Of a stretch of DNA of 64,000 nucleotides, positions 33,351 to 42,506 are shown piece after piece (the stretch's first letter is position 1; every line of letters starts with the position of its first letter). The position numbers and the translations under genes are program-made. This DNA is from Rhodothermales bacterium (lineage in GTDB: Bacteria > Bacteroidota > Rhodothermia > Rhodothermales > VXPQ01): contig OX638295.1 of assembly GCA_951812345.1 (NCBI GenBank), positions 2,668,965 to 2,732,964 of the forward strand, read 5' to 3'. The notes under the pieces were generated by a model that was given only the letters and a program-made list of their open reading frames with translations, made no database searches and had not been told where the DNA came from.

Positions 33351-33410
33351 ACGGTGGCAGGCGGGCTATAGAGGAGACAGCGCATCCGTTTCCACTCAAG
33401 ATTCGCCGCC

Positions 33411-33680
33411 CCCCCTACTCCCCGCGGAAGGTTGCCGTAGAGACTGCTGTGCTGGCTGCCAGCACGCCCAGCAGAATCAGACCGGACAGGCTGTTCCAGG
33501 CGCCGTCAAGTCATATATCCTGCAACAGATGCACGACATGGATCAGGGGCAGCCAGTTGGCAAACCCCTGGACACCCGGCGGCATAACCATCGCGGTCGC
33601 ACAGGTACTCGGCTTTATCCATGAAGTGGGTAACGATCACCACCGTCTTGTCCTCTGTCCGGATCGTCCGATTTTTGAGG
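33411..33680 (-). pseudogene. internally deleted duplicate of the ABC-2 ATPase/permease genes
   Basis: 33411-33592 matches the last about 60 codons of the permease gene at 38589, and 33592-33680 matches part of the ATPase gene near 39820-39905 (encoding KTVVIVTHFMDKAEYLCDR). The two pieces, in the native order on the minus strand, are joined directly, so about 1.05 kb between them is deleted. It is not functional. The repeat satellite follows immediately. Confidence 0.8.
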
Positions 33681-33690
33681 ATCACGTATG

Positions 33691-33905
33691 TCAATAACTC
33701 CTAAATCGCAACAATATCCGATACATACTTTCTTGTAAAAAGTTGTCAATAACTCCTAAATCGTAGTAAAATCTGATACATATTTCTTGTGAATAGTTGT
33801 CAATAACTCCTAAGTCATAATAAAATATTATATGTAATTTCTTATAAATAGTTGTCAATAACTCCTAAATCGTAATATATCCAATACATACCTTCTTTGG
33901 ACTGG
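33691..33905. repeat. four 54-55 bp AT-rich tandem repeats
   Basis: Units begin with TCAATAACTCCTAAATCG at 33691, 33746, 33800 and 33855 (spacing 55, 54, 55). The first about 18 bp are nearly invariant and the remainder is a diverging AT-rich stretch ending TAAATAGTTG. They sit just upstream of the peptide/lipoprotein cluster. They are too short-spaced and too uniform along the unit for a CRISPR. Confidence 0.85.
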
Positions 33906-33972: not shown

Positions 33973-33988
33973 GGGATGTATCACAAAC
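33973..33988 (+). promoter_or_regulatory. shared 16-bp leader motif, copy 1
   Basis: GGGATGTATCACAAAC lies 17 bp before the start of the first Cys-rich peptide gene; the same motif with one change precedes the second peptide gene at 35007. It is probably a common translation or transcription control element. Confidence 0.5.
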
Positions 33989-34005
33989 CCCCAACAGAGG
34001 AAAAC

Positions 34006-34221
34006 ATGAGTAAACGGATTTTCGCCACATTGGTGGTTGCCATTTGTATGATTTTTCCATATACCGCCGATGCAGCAAGGGAACCTGACTGTGCATGGTC
34101 GGGATACGGATGTACCGTTCGCGGTTACAATAGTGGAGATGGTACTGCCAGCTATTCGTGGGAGTGCGAGGATGGTCCCAATCAATGGGTCTATTTTTAT
34201 GAGACCGGCCCAGCTTGTTAA
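34006..34221 (+). CDS. small secreted four-cysteine protein (unit 1)
   Basis: A 71-residue precursor: signal peptide MSKRIFATLVVAICMIFPYT then cleavage near ADA-AREP. The mature part of about 47 residues has four Cys (PDC, GYGC, WEC, terminal GPAC), is rich in Gly, Tyr and Trp, and probably forms two disulfides. A paralogue follows at 35036, and its C-terminal half is repeated inside the anti-sigma-like gene at 36875. A lipoprotein gene follows 34 bp downstream. GAGGAAAA is the ribosome site. I know of no matching family; toxin, signal or adhesin are all possible. Confidence 0.8.
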   Translation: MSKRIFATLVVAICMIFPYTADAAREPDCAWSGYGCTVRGYNSGDGTASYSWECEDGPNQWVYFYETGPAC

Positions 34222-34948
34222 TCCCAACCCAACCCGAAACCAAACGGAAATAGCCATGAAAACAATCAGGAACCTTACCGCCATTCTGGCTCTAATCCTG
34301 TTTGCAGGATGCGGCGCCGCAACGGACTCTATGTCTCCGGCTTCGGTTGGAAGTACAGATGTTTCGTTCAGTTCGGCCATGGTCGTGAAAGCGGAGGACA
34401 GTCAGGGGTACGAACCCCAGGGAGCAGAAATCTCCAACGCCATGAATGAGGCAGGAACAAGAATGCGTGAGCTGACAAAACAGTACCACGCAGGAGACAT
34501 AACTGCCGAAGATCTGAGCAAAGAGGCTGACAAGATCGTGGCGGAGCATACGCAGAACCCGATCGTGCGCACAGTCATACCCCAGTTGGTGTCTCATGCG
34601 GCTTTAAGCGCATTGTTAGAGAGCGAAAACCCTGAGACCATCAAGCCGCAGATAGCGCACCATACGCAAGCGTTGGCCAACACCAACTCGCCGCATGCCG
34701 AGGACATTGCCCGAGCGCTTGAAGTGCTGGACGGCTATTGGACAAGCGAAAAGATCGAGACTGCGGCGAACAAGGCCGTGGACAATGCTGAGTACTACCT
34801 CACACGGCCAGCGCACAAAATGGATCAAGCGTCAAAGGACCAGCCCGATAACGAGGTTCCCCTGGAAGAACTCCAGGACAACAGATCAAGGGCGAAAGCC
34901 GACATCGGCTCCGGCGTAAAACAGCTGGAAGCGATGCTTGATAACTAA
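34101..34948 (+). repeat. duplicated peptide-lipoprotein segment, copy 1
   Basis: This DNA segment (3' half of the peptide gene, spacer and whole lipoprotein gene) is highly similar to 37193-38027, with long identical stretches (for example around 34482-34620 and 37561-37700). This indicates a recent duplication or gene conversion. Confidence 0.85.
34256..34948 (+). CDS. helical lipoprotein (unit 1)
   Basis: A 230-residue exported lipoprotein with lipobox in ALILFAGCG (Cys19 or so) and a mature region that is largely alpha-helical (AMNEAGTRMRELTKQYHAGD, DLSKEADKIVAEHTQ, LEVLDGYWTSEKIETAANKA). There are no cysteines in the mature part and no known domain. Unit 3 encodes a close copy, unit 2 a distant homologue. 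Each such gene follows a small Cys-rich protein gene, so a partner role (immunity, receptor or carrier for the peptide) is a reasonable but untested inference. Confidence 0.8.
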   Translation: MKTIRNLTAILALILFAGCGAATDSMSPASVGSTDVSFSSAMVVKAEDSQGYEPQGAEISNAMNEAGTRMRELTKQYHAGDITAEDLSKEADKIVAEHTQNPIVRTVIPQLVSHAALSALLESENPETIKPQIAHHTQALANTNSPHAEDIARALEVLDGYWTSEKIETAANKAVDNAEYYLTRPAHKMDQASKDQPDNEVPLEELQDNRSRAKADIGSGVKQLEAMLDN

Positions 34949-35006: not shown

Positions 35007-35022
35007 GGGATGTATCACTAAC
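35007..35022 (+). promoter_or_regulatory. shared 16-bp leader motif, copy 2
   Basis: GGGATGTATCACTAAC lies 13 bp before the second peptide start and differs from the copy at 33973 at a single position. Nearby sequence is otherwise different, so the motif is conserved beyond simple duplication. Confidence 0.5.
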
Positions 35023-35035
35023 ACGGAGAACGACA

Positions 35036-35245
35036 ATGAAACGGTTTTTCCTCATACTGACTACAGTCCTGTTTATGGGCATTCCTCTTGTCGCTGAAGC
35101 CAAACCGCCGGACTGCTCGTACAGCTACGGAAACGGCTGTGTGGCCTATGGCTGGAACTACGAAAGCAGCGAAAGTTCATTCTTCCGTGTGTACTGTGAC
35201 GGTGAGCAGGTGTGGTCCGGCTATGGGCCTCAAGGAAGTTGTTAA
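35036..35245 (+). CDS. small secreted four-cysteine protein (unit 2)
   Basis: A 69-residue precursor with signal peptide MKRFFLILTTVLFMGIPLVA and mature start near KPPDC. Four Cys are placed as in unit 1 (PDC, NGC, VYC, terminal GSC), and Tyr, Gly and Ser are abundant, but most other positions differ, so this is an old paralogue under selection to keep the cysteine frame. GGAGA precedes the ATG. The cognate lipoprotein gene begins 57 bp later. Confidence 0.8.
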   Translation: MKRFFLILTTVLFMGIPLVAEAKPPDCSYSYGNGCVAYGWNYESSESSFFRVYCDGEQVWSGYGPQGSC

Positions 35246-35302: not shown

Positions 35303-35920
35303 ATGAAACTCCAATTTGCTATCCTTGCAATAGCTGTTCTGGCTTTCGCTACCGGATGTCAGGAGGCAACCACGCAAGAAGCCACGCAGACCTCTTTCAG
35401 GATAAGTGAGCCGATGGTGATCACATACTCGGCTCCCGGGTCTTATGTAGTGCCTGACGGCGATACCAAGGCCGACGCCGAGAGATACTTCGAGGTTGTG
35501 GCTGAACCGCTTTTCGGCATGATTCAGAACTACAAAACTGGCGTTATCTCGTCGGATGAGTTCGATGAGCAGGCACGGGATATTATCGCCTCTGCCAAAA
35601 AAGAAGCGTTCTATCCTTCGGCTGCTCAGGAAGTATCCCATAACGCGCTTCGTTACCTCATGCAGGATGAGAACGCCGATCCGGATGCTATAGCCTGGCA
35701 CACCGACATACTCATTACGTACCGTTCGCCTCATGCAGATGCAATCTCCGAGGCTTTGGAGGCGCTCGAAAGCCACTGGACGGATGAGAAGATCGACAAG
35801 GCTTCTGAAGAAACGGTTGCGAACGCTGAAGCATGGCTGGTATCAACCGATGAACGTGAGCATATGCCTGAAGGGGCCCGCCACGTTATCAGTACGGCTG
35901 TGAAGGAGATGTCCCAATAG
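35303..35920 (+). CDS. helical lipoprotein (unit 2)
   Basis: A 205-residue lipoprotein with signal peptide MKLQFAILAIAVLAFATGC (lipobox ATGC). The mature region aligns by pattern with the unit 1 and unit 3 lipoproteins (SSDEFDEQARDIIASAKKEA; SPHADAISEALEALESHWTD; DEKIDKASEETVANAEAW), so the three form a family. GAGGTG precedes the ATG at 35303, with an in-frame GTG at 35294 as alternative. A strong terminator follows at 35945, closing the first two units as a probable four-gene operon. Confidence 0.8.
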   Translation: MKLQFAILAIAVLAFATGCQEATTQEATQTSFRISEPMVITYSAPGSYVVPDGDTKADAERYFEVVAEPLFGMIQNYKTGVISSDEFDEQARDIIASAKKEAFYPSAAQEVSHNALRYLMQDENADPDAIAWHTDILITYRSPHADAISEALEALESHWTDEKIDKASEETVANAEAWLVSTDEREHMPEGARHVISTAVKEMSQ

Positions 35921-35985: not shown

Positions 35986-36272
35986 GTCCATTCCGCATCT
36001 TCCCGGATATTCTCGTTTCCCCGTTCCGGCACTTTCTTATATAATTTCCCGCTTTGTATTCCCGGATTCAACGCCGAAATAATCTCGGAAAAGCCGCTTC
36101 AACAGGGCCGCGCGCCGAACGATCCGCAGGTGAAGCGGTTCTTTTTCCTGTCGGGAATAGGTACTACGGGCCTCTTGTGGATTATACATGCGAGCTTTCC
36201 GTGGATTGGTTCGGGCTCCGGTGGCACGTATGAGACGTACCTGCTTGATAACAAAACACGTGCATACACAAC

Positions 36273-36878
36273 ATGGATGAACGGTCATTGACGCGGAACG
36301 ACACGTTGCCGAGGGGAGAAATACCGTTCGACCAGCATCAAAAGCAATGGCTGCTGGCTCTGCGACACTCGAACGCCGACGCCTTCGATGCGCTCTATCA
36401 GGCGTTGTCCGAGCCCCTGCTGCGCTATGCCTGGATGTTGACGCGAGACGAGGACATGATCTACGATATCGTACAGGAAGCGTTTCTCAAGCTCTGGCAT
36501 AAACGGGCGGAGCTCGATCCCGAGCAATCGATCAAAGCCTGGCTGTTTCGGGTTGTGAGGAACCTGGCCTATAAGGCGCATCGCACGAGGCGCATCCGGA
36601 GCGAGGTGGCGTTGGATCGGGAACCGCCCTTGCGTGAAACACCTGAATCGGGCTACATCGGGCAGGAGCTGGATCGGCTCATCCAGCGGTGGATCTCGGA
36701 GATGCCGCCACGCCGCCGGGAAGTGTTTCAGTTGAGCCGTGTCGAATGCCTGTCCCACCAGGAGATAGCCGACGTGCTGGCAATCTCCGGCAAGACCGTC
36801 AACAACCATCTGGTGGAAGGACTTCGGTTTCTTCGCGGCAAGATCCGGGCCTATGGATTAAACGAATACATGCTATGA
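36273..36878 (+). CDS. ECF-type RNA polymerase sigma factor
   Basis: A 201-residue sigma-70 family protein with region 2 (ALYQALSEPLLRYAWMLTRD, IYDIVQEAFLKLW) and region 4 (MPPRRREVFQLSRVECLSHQ, EIADVLAISGKTVNNHL). The 3' end overlaps the next gene by an ATGA junction (ATG 36875, TGA 36876-36878), typical of sigma/anti-sigma pairs. It lies between peptide-lipoprotein units 2 and 3 and may direct their expression. Upstream 35986-36272 contains no gene; a promoter is expected there but I cannot name it. Confidence 0.9.
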   Translation: MDERSLTRNDTLPRGEIPFDQHQKQWLLALRHSNADAFDALYQALSEPLLRYAWMLTRDEDMIYDIVQEAFLKLWHKRAELDPEQSIKAWLFRVVRNLAYKAHRTRRIRSEVALDREPPLRETPESGYIGQELDRLIQRWISEMPPRRREVFQLSRVECLSHQEIADVLAISGKTVNNHLVEGLRFLRGKIRAYGLNEYML

Positions 36879-37306
36879 CAGCACACAAGCCCTCACCCTC
36901 CGACCCGGTTCGGGACGCCCTCGAGCCGCTCGAAGAAGACGAACGTTCCGAACTCGCAGCGACCTGGGAAACCGTCCGGAACGATTCCAGTTGGCCCGGC
37001 ATCGATGCAGATCGACGCGACCGGACAGGAGCGTTTCTCAGCGCCCATGTCCGGGCCAGGTCTCGTGCAAGCCAGAAAGGGAGAATCCAGGCGCGACCGC
37101 TGCTTCGTCTCGTCCGTCGGCGCTGGGCAGTGCTGTCTGCCGCTACCGCCGCCGTAGTGGTCATGATTGCTATAGGACTGGCCTTGCGGGACGGATGCTC
37201 CATTCGCGGTTACGGTAATGAAGATGGTACTGTCAGCTACTCGTGGGAGTGCGAGGATGGTCCCAATCAATGGGTCTATTTTTATGAGACCGGCCCATCC
37301 GGTTAA
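36875..37306 (+). CDS. anti-sigma-like membrane protein fused to a Cys-rich peptide domain
   Basis: A 143-residue protein: a cytosolic acidic/basic N-terminal region of about 90 residues, one membrane helix (VLSAATAAVVVMIAIGLAL), then an extracytoplasmic tail of about 40 residues that is the C-terminal part of the unit 1 secreted protein (DGTVSYSWECEDGPNQWVYF). The first and last peptide cysteines are lost (start RDGCS, end GPSG). In place of the longer outer domain usual for anti-sigma factors, it carries a peptide module. Translationally coupled to the sigma gene. It may be a true sensor fusion or a truncation created by recombination. Confidence 0.75.
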   Translation: MTAHKPSPSDPVRDALEPLEEDERSELAATWETVRNDSSWPGIDADRRDRTGAFLSAHVRARSRASQKGRIQARPLLRLVRRRWAVLSAATAAVVVMIAIGLALRDGCSIRGYGNEDGTVSYSWECEDGPNQWVYFYETGPSG

Positions 37307-38027
37307 TCCCAACCCAACCCGAAACCAAACGAAAATAGCCATGAAAACAATCAGGAAGCTTAGCGCCATTGTGGCTCTGATCCTGTTTGCAGGATGTGGT
37401 ACCGGAACGGACTCTATGTCTCCGGCTTCGGTTGGAAGCACAGATGCTTCGTTCAGTTCGGCTATGGTTGTCAAAGATAGTGAAGGTTATCAGCCGCAAG
37501 GAGCGGAGATAGCCAACGCTATCAACGACGCGGGAACGAAGATGCGCGAACTGGCAAAACAGTATCACGCAGGAGACATAACTGCCGAAGATCTGAGCAA
37601 AGAGGCTGACAAGATCGTGGCGGAGCATACGCAGAACCCGATCGTGCGCACAGTCATACCCCAGTTGGTGTCCCATGCGGCTTTAAGCGCATTGTTAGAG
37701 AGTGAAAACCTTGAGGCCATCAAGCCGCAGATAGCATACCATACACAGGCTTTGGTCGAAACAAACTCTCCGCATGCCGAGGAGGTTGCCCGCGCCCTTG
37801 AAGTGTTGGACGGCTACTGGACAAGCGAAAAGGTCGGAGATGTAGCAAACAAGGCCGTAGACAACGCCGAGTATTACCTCGGACGCCCAGCGCACAAAAT
37901 GGATCAAGCTTCAAAGAACCAGCCCGATAACGAGATTCCTTTGGAAGAACTCCAGGACAACAGATCAAGGGCGAAAGCCGACATCGGCTCTGGCATAAAG
38001 CAGCTGGAAGCGATGATTGGGCGCTAA
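37193..38027 (+). repeat. duplicated peptide-lipoprotein segment, copy 2
   Basis: Homologous to 34101-34948; it begins within the outer part of the anti-sigma-like gene and ends at the unit 3 lipoprotein stop. The junction near 37193 is where the anti-sigma sequence gives way to peptide sequence. Confidence 0.85.
37341..38027 (+). CDS. helical lipoprotein (unit 3)
   Basis: A 228-residue lipoprotein nearly identical to unit 1 over most of its length (lipobox ALILFAGCG; shared DLSKEADKIVAEHTQNPIVR), differing mainly near residues 40-60 and 140-160. It begins 35 bp after the fusion gene. Its role is unknown; its retention next to the sigma/anti-sigma pair suggests it may be co-expressed with them. 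No terminator is obvious downstream. Confidence 0.8.
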   Translation: MKTIRKLSAIVALILFAGCGTGTDSMSPASVGSTDASFSSAMVVKDSEGYQPQGAEIANAINDAGTKMRELAKQYHAGDITAEDLSKEADKIVAEHTQNPIVRTVIPQLVSHAALSALLESENLEAIKPQIAYHTQALVETNSPHAEEVARALEVLDGYWTSEKVGDVANKAVDNAEYYLGRPAHKMDQASKNQPDNEIPLEELQDNRSRAKADIGSGIKQLEAMIGR

Positions 38028-38085: not shown

Positions 38086-38574
38086 ATGATCCCGAAATAT
38101 TTCACTCGCCTTGACAACACCCAAGTTTGGGATTCGCAAAAAAATGATAGAGAATCACTGGAAGATCTCATAATAGGAAAAGCTTACAAAGAATTCCTTA
38201 AAACGGATGCAGCGCATGCAGAAAAGGTTGATATCCTGCTCGCGCTCGATTATATCCATGAAAATCTATTATCGCCCTCCCTGTCCGTACGGCAGGTAAT
38301 TACGAAATGCCGCATTCGGACGCATGCATTCCATGAACGATTTGCAGGCGAAGTTGCGTTACGCGGCAATGTACGGAGAACACCTGGAAAATACATAGAA
38401 TGGGCGCGTATCCAAGTGGCCCGGCGCATACTCGATAATAATAATGGCTATTATATGGCGGAACTGGCATACAAGGTCGGATTCGGCTCTTACCGCACTT
38501 TCTATCGGGCTTGTCGTAAACACCTGGGCTGCAAGCCGTCGGATATTTTGGGTATGAGTAGCGAGGTTCGTTGA
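38086..38574 (+). CDS. AraC-family-like transcription regulator (HTH domain)
   Basis: A 162-residue protein with a C-terminal AraC-type DNA-binding region: first helix-turn-helix near DYIHENLLSPSLSVRQVITK, then EWARIQVARRILDNN and AELAYKVGFGSYRTFYRACR, then HLGCKPSDILGMS. The N-terminal part is short and has no recognised ligand domain. It lies between unit 3 and the ABC-2 transporter (convergent, 14 bp gap), so either could be a target. The start at 38086 is the only good ATG; ribosome site weak. Confidence 0.78.
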   Translation: MIPKYFTRLDNTQVWDSQKNDRESLEDLIIGKAYKEFLKTDAAHAEKVDILLALDYIHENLLSPSLSVRQVITKCRIRTHAFHERFAGEVALRGNVRRTPGKYIEWARIQVARRILDNNNGYYMAELAYKVGFGSYRTFYRACRKHLGCKPSDILGMSSEVR

Positions 38575-38588
38575 ACAACCACACCCCC

Positions 38589-39386
38589 CTACTCCCAACG
38601 AAAGGTTGCCGTAGAGACCGCTGTGCCGACGGCCAGTACGCCCAGAAGGATCAGGCCGGACAGGCTGTTCCAGGCGCCGTCGAGCCATATATCCTGCAAC
38701 AAATGCACCACATGGGTCAGGGGCAGCCAGTTTGCAACCTCCTGGACGCCCGGCGGCATAGCCATCAGAGGGATGGTCATGCCGGAAAGAAACATCATCG
38801 GGAAGAACGCCACCATTCCGGCTATCTGAGCCAGTTTACTGGTGGGCGCCAGGCTGGCGATGATGTATCCAAGCGAGATAAACGCCAGAAGGCTCAGGGT
38901 AAAGCCGGCCAGCACGACAGCCCAGTTGCCATCGAAGCGCAGCCCGAAGAACAGTTTCGCCACCAGGATCAACAACGCCGCGCCCACCAGCGCCACCCCG
39001 AAGTACACGCTCACGTCCGCGGTGAAATAGACGATCGGACGCATGGGCGTGACCTGATAGCGCCGCAGGAGCTTCTGTTCCCTGTCGCTCGCCGTGGCCA
39101 CGGGAATCGTCATGAAAGCGACCGTGGCGATAATCAGCCCGATCAACGCCGGCGTCATCATGTCGATATAACCGAACCCCGGGTTGAAATAGCCACCCGG
39201 TTCGTTCCCCCATATGAAGCCGAAGAGCACCAGCACCAGGACCGGGAAGCACAAATTGAAGAACAGCGCGATCGGCTCGCGCAGGAACAGCTTCGTCTTT
39301 ACGACAGTGAGTTTGCCATAGGAGCGCAGGAAAGGAGCAAAAACGCTTCCTGTTGCGGGCCGAATCTGTGGAGTGGTTGTCGTCAT
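38589..39386 (-). CDS. ABC-2-type transporter permease
   Basis: A 265-residue membrane protein with six hydrophobic helices. Family signatures include TKLFLREPIALFFNLCFPVL, the ASDREQKLLRRYQVTPM cytosolic loop and MFLSGMTIPLMAMPPGVQEV. It works with the adjacent ATPase to export drugs, lipids or peptides. The order is ATPase then permease on the minus strand with a 112-bp gap. A broken copy of this pair exists at 33411. Proximity to the peptide cluster raises the chance of a link but does not prove it. Confidence 0.9.
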   Translation of the reverse strand: MTTTTPQIRPATGSVFAPFLRSYGKLTVVKTKLFLREPIALFFNLCFPVLVLVLFGFIWGNEPGGYFNPGFGYIDMMTPALIGLIIATVAFMTIPVATASDREQKLLRRYQVTPMRPIVYFTADVSVYFGVALVGAALLILVAKLFFGLRFDGNWAVVLAGFTLSLLAFISLGYIIASLAPTSKLAQIAGMVAFFPMMFLSGMTIPLMAMPPGVQEVANWLPLTHVVHLLQDIWLDGAWNSLSGLILLGVLAVGTAVSTATFRWE

Positions 39387-39498: not shown

Positions 39499-40416
39499 TC
39501 ATGAATCCCGAATCGCCCGCCCGGTAAGCCGCAGGAAGACATCCTCCAGATCGGCCTGTTCCGTGCGCAGGCTCCGGAACGGAATGCGCTCTTCTTCCAG
39601 CCGGGCGACCACTGCGGCAAGCAGTCCGTCCGTGTCGCCGGAAACGATCGCCTGGCGACCGCTGCGCGTCACTTCCTTTACCTGCGGGAGAGATTGCAGC
39701 GGCGACAGGTCGAATTCCGGCTCCACCTCGAACACGATACGCCTTTCCTCATCCAATGCTTTCACTAACCCGGCCGGCGTGTCCAGCGCAATGATTTTGC
39801 CCCGATCGACGATTGCGATGCGGTCGCACAGGTGCTCGGCTTCATCCATGAAGTGGGTAACGAGCACCACTGTTTTGCCCTGTGCCCGGATCGTCCGGAC
39901 CAGTTCCCAGGTGGCCCGGCGGGCTTGCGGGTCCAATCCGCTGGTCAGTTCGTCCAGAAACACGACGTCCGGATCGTTGACCAGCGCCAAGGCGATAAAC
40001 AGTCGTTGCTTCTGACCGCCGGAAAGGTTTCCGAAGGCCGCATTGCGCTTGTCGGCCAGCCCCCATTGTTTTAGGAGCGGCTCGTAGGGGACGGTATGCG
40101 CGTACAAGGAGGAGAACAGGTCCAGCGCCTCCCACACTTTCATGCGTTCGGCGAGGGCTGCGGCCTGCAGTTGTACGCCGATACGTTGCGCCAGCGCAGC
40201 CCGCTCCCTGACGGGGTCCAGCCCCAGCACCGATATCCGGCCCCGATCCGGCTTGCGCAGGCCGATGACGCTCTCGACCGTCGTCGTCTTGCCGGCGCCG
40301 TTCGGTCCGATGATCCCGAAGATTTCGCCCGGCTGTACGGAAAACGACACGTCGTCAACCGCCACGGTTTCCCCGTAGGTCTTGCGGATTCCTTCGACTT
40401 CGATGATGGGTTGCAT
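39499..40416 (-). CDS. ABC-2-type transporter ATPase
   Basis: A 305-residue ATPase with Walker A IGPNGAGKTTTVESVIG, Q-loop (IGVQLQAAAL), signature LSGGQKQRLFIAL, Walker B DVVFLDELTSGLDP and switch His in VLVTHFMDEAEHL. The C-terminal about 80 residues form the regulatory tail usual in CcmA/DrrA-like proteins. The ATG at 40416 begins MQPIIEVEGIRKTYGE. A TATATAATATATA element lies about 40 bp upstream and could be the promoter. The operon is two genes with the permease. Confidence 0.93.
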   Translation of the reverse strand: MQPIIEVEGIRKTYGETVAVDDVSFSVQPGEIFGIIGPNGAGKTTTVESVIGLRKPDRGRISVLGLDPVRERAALAQRIGVQLQAAALAERMKVWEALDLFSSLYAHTVPYEPLLKQWGLADKRNAAFGNLSGGQKQRLFIALALVNDPDVVFLDELTSGLDPQARRATWELVRTIRAQGKTVVLVTHFMDEAEHLCDRIAIVDRGKIIALDTPAGLVKALDEERRIVFEVEPEFDLSPLQSLPQVKEVTRSGRQAIVSGDTDGLLAAVVARLEEERIPFRSLRTEQADLEDVFLRLTGRAIRDS

Positions 40417-40814: not shown

Positions 40815-42506
40815 ATGAGAATAATCAGGGAAACGAGTCTGCACCAGGCAGCTATTAAGGACACGGAATCTGTTCACGCCCTGATCGACGCAGGCGCCGA
40901 CGTAAACGAAAAAAACGTCCGCGACGAAACGCCTCTGCACTGGGCGGTTTTGGGAAGGAATCTGGAAGCCATCCGCATTCTTATCGAAGCGGGCGCGGAC
41001 GTACACGAAAAAGACGAAAAGGACCAAACGCCTCTGCACCAAGCGTTCAGAGGAGACACAGCATGGAATAACCCTTTGCATCTTAGTTCACGGGATTCCC
41101 ACCGTGCATGGGGGGCCAATGAAGACACTATCCGCGTTCTTATCGAGGCAGGCGCCAATGTACATGCAAAAGACAACGAGAACCGAACGTCTCTGCATCG
41201 GGCAGCTTTGGGAAGTGACGTGGAATCCATCCTCGTTCTTATCGAAGCGGGCGCCGACGCACATGCAAAAGACGACGAGGGCCAAACGCCTTTGCACCAA
41301 GCAGCCTCAATGAACGAGGCGGAAATTATCCGCGTTCTGATCGAAGCGGGGGCGGACGTACACGCAAAAACAAACGGGGGCCAAACGCCTCTGCACAAAG
41401 CGGCCTGGAGTGCCCACACGGAATCCATCCGTATTCTGATCGAAACGGGCGCCGACGTACATGCGAAAGACAATTGGGGCCGAACGCCTCTGCATGGGAT
41501 GCATAATAGCGTCGATGCAGAATCTATCCGCATCCTGATCGAAGCAGGAGCAGACATACATGCAAAAGACGACGGAGGAAAAACGCCTCTGCATGTCTTG
41601 GCTGGGACTGTCGATGCAGAATCTATCCGCATCCTTATCGAGGCGGGCGCAGACGTACATGCGAAAGACAATTGGGCCCGAACGCCTCTGCACACGGCGG
41701 CCTGGGCGAACCGAGCGGAAGTTGTCCGTATTCTGATCGAAGCGGGCGCAGACGTACATGTAAAAACAAACGGGGACCAAACACCTCTGCACGAAGCGGC
41801 TCAGAACGCCGGGGAGGAAACTATCCGCGCTTTGATCGAAGCAGGCGCAGACGTACATGCGAAAGACAACAAGGGCCAAACGCCTCTGTACCAAGCGGCT
41901 CATAACGCCGGGGATAAATCTGTCCTCCGCGTTTTTATCGAAGCGGGCGCCGACGTAAACGCAAAAGACGACGAGGGCCAAACGCCTCTGCACCAAATGG
42001 CTTGGGGGGGCAATATCATATGGGAAATCGGAATGGCATGGGAAGAAGGCGGAGACGCTATCCGCACTCTTATCGAAGCAGGCGCCGACATACACGCAAA
42101 AGACGGCGAGGGCCAAACGCCTCTGCACTGGGTATGCGATGAACGCGCCACCCGCCCTCTGATTGAAGCAAGCGCCGACGTACATGCAAAAGACGGCAAG
42201 GGAAAAACGCCTCTGCACGAAGCGGTTCAGAGCGCCGATGCGGAATCTGTCTGCCTTCTAATCGAAGCAGGAGCAGACATACATGCAAAAGACGACGAGG
42301 GAAAAACGCCTCTGCATTGGGCAGCCAACAGAAGCTTCGAGGAAGTTGTCCGCACTTTGATCGAAGCGGGCGCCGACGTACACGCAAAAGACGACGAAGG
42401 AAAAACGCCTCTGGACTGGGCGAGAAGTCAGGAGTGGGACGATCCGGACGTGATTGAACTGCTATCCGGAGCGGTACATGGAAATAGCGCTCCTACTTCA
42501 GATTAA
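40815..42506 (+). CDS. ankyrin-repeat protein
   Basis: The 563-residue protein consists of 15 full ankyrin repeats plus a partial one. Each repeat is about 33 residues of the form TPLHxAA-x9-IRxLIEAGADVHAKDDxGQ. Repeats 3 and 12 carry insertions. There is no signal peptide or membrane helix, so it is cytosolic unless exported by another route. Repeats are similar even at the DNA level, a sign of recent expansion. Ankyrin proteins bind other proteins; the target is unknown. Flanking 23-bp direct repeats suggest it arrived as a cassette. No strong ribosome site. Confidence 0.9.
   Translation: MRIIRETSLHQAAIKDTESVHALIDAGADVNEKNVRDETPLHWAVLGRNLEAIRILIEAGADVHEKDEKDQTPLHQAFRGDTAWNNPLHLSSRDSHRAWGANEDTIRVLIEAGANVHAKDNENRTSLHRAALGSDVESILVLIEAGADAHAKDDEGQTPLHQAASMNEAEIIRVLIEAGADVHAKTNGGQTPLHKAAWSAHTESIRILIETGADVHAKDNWGRTPLHGMHNSVDAESIRILIEAGADIHAKDDGGKTPLHVLAGTVDAESIRILIEAGADVHAKDNWARTPLHTAAWANRAEVVRILIEAGADVHVKTNGDQTPLHEAAQNAGEETIRALIEAGADVHAKDNKGQTPLYQAAHNAGDKSVLRVFIEAGADVNAKDDEGQTPLHQMAWGGNIIWEIGMAWEEGGDAIRTLIEAGADIHAKDGEGQTPLHWVCDERATRPLIEASADVHAKDGKGKTPLHEAVQSADAESVCLLIEAGADIHAKDDEGKTPLHWAANRSFEEVVRTLIEAGADVHAKDDEGKTPLDWARSQEWDDPDVIELLSGAVHGNSAPTSD

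Follow-up and report, generated by a model that had tools for sequence, protein, structure and literature searches.

The window, by which we mean the whole stretch of 64,000 nucleotides analysed, covers positions 2668965-2732964 of the single-contig 2.82 Mb genome of a Rhodothermales bacterium. It was compared with six genomes of the genus, among which the window genome is G000, and with 114 genomes of the order Rhodothermales. The features on which the following argument turns are listed in window coordinates.

34006..34221, + strand: secreted four-Cys protein of the family that donated the tail of the fusion (signal peptide in the sequence, homologues, AlphaFold2)
34256..34948, + strand: lipoprotein copy 1, partner of the protein at 34006 (homology)
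34106..34948, + strand: duplicated block (copy at 37191-38027), which placed the tail and a lipoprotein beside the anti-sigma gene
35036..35245, + strand: second, divergent secreted four-Cys protein (34% to P0003 over 62 residues, E 1.5e-4; 80.7 bits to the family profile)
35303..35920, + strand: lipoprotein copy 2, divergent (31% to copy 3; 198 bits to the family profile)
36273..36878, + strand: FecI-like ECF sigma factor, 201 aa (TIGR02985 Sig70_bacteroi1; Pfam Sigma70_r2/r4)
36875..37306, + strand: the fusion, an anti-sigma factor of 143 aa whose start overlaps the sigma stop codon (ATGA)
36875..37123, + strand: putative cytosolic sigma-binding domain of FecR type, residues 1-83 (profile; dN/dS)
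37124..37189, + strand: single membrane helix, residues 84-105, with RRR just before it (hydropathy; low-confidence model helix 89-105)
37190..37303, + strand: outer tail, residues 106-143, the C2-C3 part of a four-Cys domain without strand 1, C1 and C4 (alignments)
37341..38027, + strand: lipoprotein copy 3 (87% protein identity to 34256-34948; lipobox LFAGC)
38086..38574, + strand: short AraC-type HTH protein (PF12833, 50.5 bits), about 60 bases 3' of lipoprotein copy 3

The sigma factor scores 131.3 bits against NCBIfam TIGR02985, for which the cut-off is 126.4. Within the genus its orthologues are those of G003 (96%) and G004 (93%) and no others, and the congener search found neither the sigma gene nor the fusion in G001, G002 and G005. 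Across the 114 genomes of the order, the sigma model A3 separates three orthologues at 461-464 bits from a next best score of about 154. With a dN/dS of 0.15-0.20 among G000, G003 and G004 the sigma factor is strongly conserved.

Directly 3' of this gene lies the fusion. Throughout the order, the gene 3' of a homologous sigma gene encodes a FecR-type protein of about 300-370 residues, with an N-terminal domain, a helix, FecR motifs (LPDGS, GEAFFDV, VLGTxFNVR) and a C-terminus that we read as STN-like; by a simple rule the motifs are found in 23 of 29 extracted partner ORFs, a few of which are spurious frames. A profile of the N-terminal and transmembrane halves, built from 24 such partner proteins, matches the fusion with 34.9 bits (E 1e-9) and the fusion of G004 with 28.8 bits, compared with 17.5 bits for the best of 1000 shuffles in which the compositions of the cytosolic part and the helix were kept apart. 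As the cytosolic part alone reaches 17.6 bits and the helix contributes to the score, the homology depends on domain and helix jointly, together with the position of the gene. The anti-sigma identity proposed from the sequence alone can thus be made more precise through these relatives as membership of the FecR family. The best hydrophobic window of 19 residues in the fusion is VLSAATAAVVVMIAIGLAL, with a mean hydropathy of 2.5.

The usual outer domain is indeed missing, as had been claimed: the fusion has no Pfam match, neither FecR PF04773 nor an STN-like C-terminus among them, and no FecR motif occurs in it or in the downstream sequence in any frame. A genus-wide scan for PF04773 found as the sole FecR protein of this genome the product of an unlinked gene at 846502. 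From the 300-370-residue FecR proteins of the relatives and the profile match of the fusion it follows that the lost part is the FecR and STN-like outer region. The sequence-only reading had suggested looking for an intact longer anti-sigma gene, and the search of the 114 order genomes with the sigma model returned no such orthologue. Comparison of the fusion with PDB sequences gave no match. That the gene encodes a real, conserved FecR-type anti-sigma variant that arose by domain replacement is well supported, and no earlier description of this variant was found in the literature.

After the helix the protein continues with the 38 residues RDGCSIRGYGNEDGTVSYSWECEDGPNQWVYFYETGPSG; aligned over 36 residues with the secreted product of the gene at 34006, they reach 81% identity (E 8.7e-18), just as the near-copy noticed in the sequence would predict. 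The profile of the four-Cys family (18 rows, the fusion tails being among them) matches the fusion tails with 33-35 bits at positions 31-68, the core of the C2-C3 hairpin. In place of a signal peptide and four cysteines, the fusion has an internal helix and two cysteines, whereas all four cysteines are present in every aligned stand-alone member. The two that were said to be lost are C1 and C4, and C1 is absent because of the position of the junction.

The similarity is also present at the DNA level and continues, as described before, through the spacer into the lipoprotein gene: 34106-34391 and 37191-37476 are 91% identical, and 34397-34696 and 37476-37775 are 87% identical. The copy starts within the Cys gene at 34106/37191, takes in its 3' half and the spacer, and reaches the ends of the lipoprotein genes. 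Recombination with the block of secreted protein and lipoprotein is borne out by this duplication and places the junction at 37190/37191, close to the position near 37193 given at first. Lipoprotein copy 3 begins 34 bases 3' of the fusion in the same orientation, and a copy lies directly 3' of the fusion in all three species that have it.

The insert in the window also contains AT-rich repeats and a decayed ABC-transporter duplicate. At 33380-33670 a decayed duplicate of an ABC permease 3' end (38584-38766) is fused to an internal fragment of the ATPase gene (39820-39897). At 33689-33890, 5' of the secreted gene, lie AT-rich repeats of about 54 bases (TGTCAATAACTCCTAAATCG...), which are also present in G004 and as fragments in G005. 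The sequence GGATGTATCACNAAC is common to 33974-33989 and 35008-35023, shortly 5' of both secreted Cys genes, and could be a control element. Relatives of the AraC-type protein adjoin the cassette in G027 and G012 (L177 6305-6827; L183 8037-8670), making three genera in all. An ankyrin-repeat protein of 563 residues is encoded at 40815-42506.

The donor of the tail belongs to a two-gene cassette, in which a secreted protein is encoded about 50 bases 5' of a lipoprotein of about 230 residues; it is patchily distributed in the order and possibly outranks the fusion in interest. Of the 114 order genomes, 22 encode a member of the lipoprotein family, which also occurs in a few other genomes of the phylum. 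An ORF with the secreted four-Cys pattern lies at most 450 bases upstream of 14 lipoproteins, compared with one chance occurrence among about 450 other neighbourhood ORFs; the pattern was written after the members had been seen, and this count measures linkage and not discovery. Some lipoprotein loci are without a recognisable Cys partner. The cassette proteins belong to no Pfam, NCBIfam or PADLOC family, giving sub-threshold weak matches only, and a literature search for a cassette of secreted protein and lipoprotein found nothing. Many lipoproteins outside the genus (L028, L030, L031, L033, L044, L046) carry a C-terminal CxxC (CADC, CKDC, CDSC, CENC, CDGC), which is missing from the copies in the window; a thiol link between this motif and the four-Cys partner is possible. 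At L154 (G003:C1:787500-792500) there are three tandem distant relatives of the lipoprotein.

AlphaFold2 models were made from the sequences of the window and of L105 with shallow alignments, namely four aligned sequences for the tail and secreted models. The mature secreted protein is modelled as a four-stranded sheet with a pLDDT of 88, in which C1 opens strand 1, C2 opens strand 2, C3 lies near the end of strand 3 and C4 follows strand 4. A search of this fold against the PDB gave a best E of 0.6, which for such a small sheet is uninformative. In the model of the fusion the tail has a mean pLDDT of 46 and forms only a hairpin of strands 108-114 and 120-126. For the earlier suggestion that the sensor displays the peptide fold, the support is therefore only partial: the tail is a copy, but strand 1 and two cysteines are missing and the tail is modelled at 46 as against 88. 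A hairpin of strands 2 and 3 would bring C2 and C3 to one and the same end, where a disulfide would be possible. Loss of C1 and C4 with retention of C2 and C3 fits a pairing of C1-C4 and C2-C3, without proving it.

Related genomes were to show whether the same fusion recurs, and it does: G003 (93%) and G004 (78%) encode it in full length, with the same junction and 143 residues. Searching the contigs of named genomes with the fusion yielded a single record, OX638293.1, which is the single-chromosome MAG G003. All three fusion tails have lost C1 and C4 and retained C2 and C3. Three states are fixed in the three fusions, namely C4 to G, T to S after C2, and A to V (DGTVSY), where the secreted copies of G000 and G004 have C, T and A. 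Over the 850-base copy, 19 informative sites split fused from secreted copies and 10 group by species, and 31 further sites, many of which fall in one tract of some 90 bases, join the fused copy of G004 with the secreted copies. Because the fusion-only states are fixed in all three species and 19 sites separate fused from secreted copies, these alignments show one old origin of the fusion, followed by patches of gene conversion. No secreted four-Cys copy was found in G003 with the family profile. The four-Cys domain occurs at 28 places in the order, three of which are in fusions, all orthologous; the remaining places are in short frames, and no further fusions of the Cys domain were seen. In G004 the secreted cassette lies on contig C56, a short one whose end resembles window 36108-36219, upstream of the sigma gene; contig C35 ends just 5' of the sigma gene, the two ends having no clear overlap. 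Judging from these end sequences, the cassette was probably a neighbour of the sigma operon before it was copied.

The cytosolic domain has a dN/dS of 0.39-0.56, and tail comparisons that include G004 give 0.30-0.34. A single non-synonymous change, and no synonymous one, separates the tails of G000 and G003. In the two comparisons that involve G003, 1 and 8 non-synonymous changes were observed where 8 and 19 were expected from the synonymous rate of the operon (P ~0.002 each); for the three pairs, which are non-independent and involve small numbers, the neutral test gives P values of 0.002, 0.02 and 0.002. G003, which today has no secreted copy to convert from, is one side of both comparisons with P ~0.002. 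Purifying selection thus acts on the tail, and in the comparisons with G004 gene conversion may inflate its conservation.

Our main reading, to which we assign a probability of roughly 0.4, is that the protein is a working anti-sigma factor of the FecR family whose sensor has been exchanged for a bait tail that is read by the lipoprotein of the cassette. In this reading, a single in-frame recombination in the ancestor of the three species replaced the FecR and STN-like region with a piece from the C-terminal end of a secreted four-Cys protein. How the fusion is controlled is a hypothesis: it would reside in the inner membrane, as its predicted topology suggests, and its N-terminal domain would hold the FecI-like sigma factor, as expected by homology; sigma factors are bound by N-terminal domains of FecR, and short fragments can activate them (PMC9249621). 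The tail of 38 residues, probably pinned by one C2-C3 disulfide, would be a bait in the periplasm, most likely bound by the lipoprotein encoded downstream, the presumed usual partner of the secreted protein. RseP cuts FecR with a shortened outer part (PMC8144685), and the outer part of the fusion has just 38 residues, so that an unprotected fusion should be cut; site-2 proteases (M50) are encoded in the genome. Binding by the lipoprotein might shield the tail from such a protease, just as the outer domain of FoxR is protected from proteolysis when bound by the transducer domain (PMC11637429), and on departure of the partner the protease would cut the helix and release the sigma factor. Protection by the lipoprotein is suggested because the tail is conserved and the lipoprotein is fixed downstream. 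The mechanism cannot depend on the tail competing with the secreted protein, because G003 does not have the latter. The missing strand and cysteines, the low model confidence for the tail and the lipoprotein loci that have no recognisable Cys partner speak against this reading.

Possible as well, though in our view somewhat less likely, is a permanently pre-cleaved regulator: an exterior of 38 residues would mimic FecR or RseA after site-1 cleavage and lead to an immediate site-2 cut, the sigma factor would be constitutively active, and the tail would be a sequence joined by chance, FecR fragments serving even as pro-sigma factors. The tail is indeed near the approximately 30 residues of DegS-cleaved RseA that pass the size filter of RseP (PMC8144685), FecR 1-59, FecR 1-116 and truncated IutY cause constitutive activity (PMC9249621), M50 proteases are available, and the FecR/STN region for the transducer signal is gone. 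However, this explanation accounts neither for the constraint on the tail sequence, nor for the fact that all three species kept C2 and C3 and lost C1 and C4, nor for the lipoprotein that stays directly downstream. The plain broken regulator that the sequence-only reading had offered as its second option is disfavoured because the sequence of the tail is constrained.

A plain anti-sigma factor with an inert stub, in which N-terminal domain and helix keep the sigma factor always off and blind to signals, is unlikely. An N-terminal domain alone has anti-sigma activity in FpvR (PMC9249621) and in Leptospira LIC12756, and the NTD-TMD form of the latter lacks the full signal response (PMC13118517), but a sigma factor that is never used should decay, which is at odds with its dN/dS, and an inert stub should not be constrained as the tail is. 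Still less credit is due to a functionless pseudogene or recombination scar maintained solely by conversion from the secreted copy: signs of conversion between the copies are clear and decayed ABC-transporter duplicates make the region a patchwork, yet the frame is open in three species at a synonymous divergence of 0.1-0.25, fusion-specific differences persist despite conversion, and the tail is kept in G003, which has no secreted copy at all. An assembly artefact joining two separate genes was rejected: near-identical copies 3 kb apart are a known cause of collapse, but the assembly of the window contains both of them next to each other and the identical junction is common to the assemblies of three species, two of them single-contig.

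Anti-sigma factors are thought to change the signal to which they respond through swaps of their outer domains. Like the FecI/FecR systems (E. coli FecIR, Pseudomonas FoxIR and PupIR, and in Bacteroidota TIGR02985 with FecR), the locus has a FecI-like sigma gene followed by an anti-sigma gene, whose cytosolic N-terminal domain is homologous to the FecR proteins of the order and is followed by one membrane helix. Unlike them, the fusion has no outer PF04773/STN-like domain and carries instead a tail of 38 residues from an unrelated secreted protein; and unlike in FecIRA, no TonB-dependent transducer with a signalling domain was seen among the ORFs listed at 31-41 kb of the window. With the FecR, RseA and IutY proteins pre-cleaved or truncated in the laboratory it shares an outer remainder of about 30-40 residues, but the fusion is natural and conserved, and its remainder is foreign, constrained and equipped with two cysteines. 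Its tail and the downstream lipoprotein are a copy of the cassette, from which it differs in having a partial Cys domain, no signal peptide and an anti-sigma part joined on. An unusual outer sensor domain with a protein as its ligand is known from RsiV, which binds lysozyme (PMC4183432); the likeness is one of idea, and no sequence relation is claimed.

Returning to the reading of the tail as bait, the locus may, as we put forward tentatively, represent a natural sensor swap by which an ECF sigma/anti-sigma pair moved from TonB-receptor signalling to a module of secreted protein and lipoprotein. A natural swap with its donor still adjacent is valuable in that a stretch of 4 kb holds the donor, its copy and the junction, and the fused product has persisted in three species. 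The fusion also provides a handle on the unnamed cassette, for which it predicts an interaction between secreted protein and lipoprotein. If the sensor swap is true, the two proteins of the module would bind each other in the periplasm and their state would be worth sensing, and if the tail gates cleavage, its 38 residues would be a minimal outer domain controlling site-2 proteolysis.
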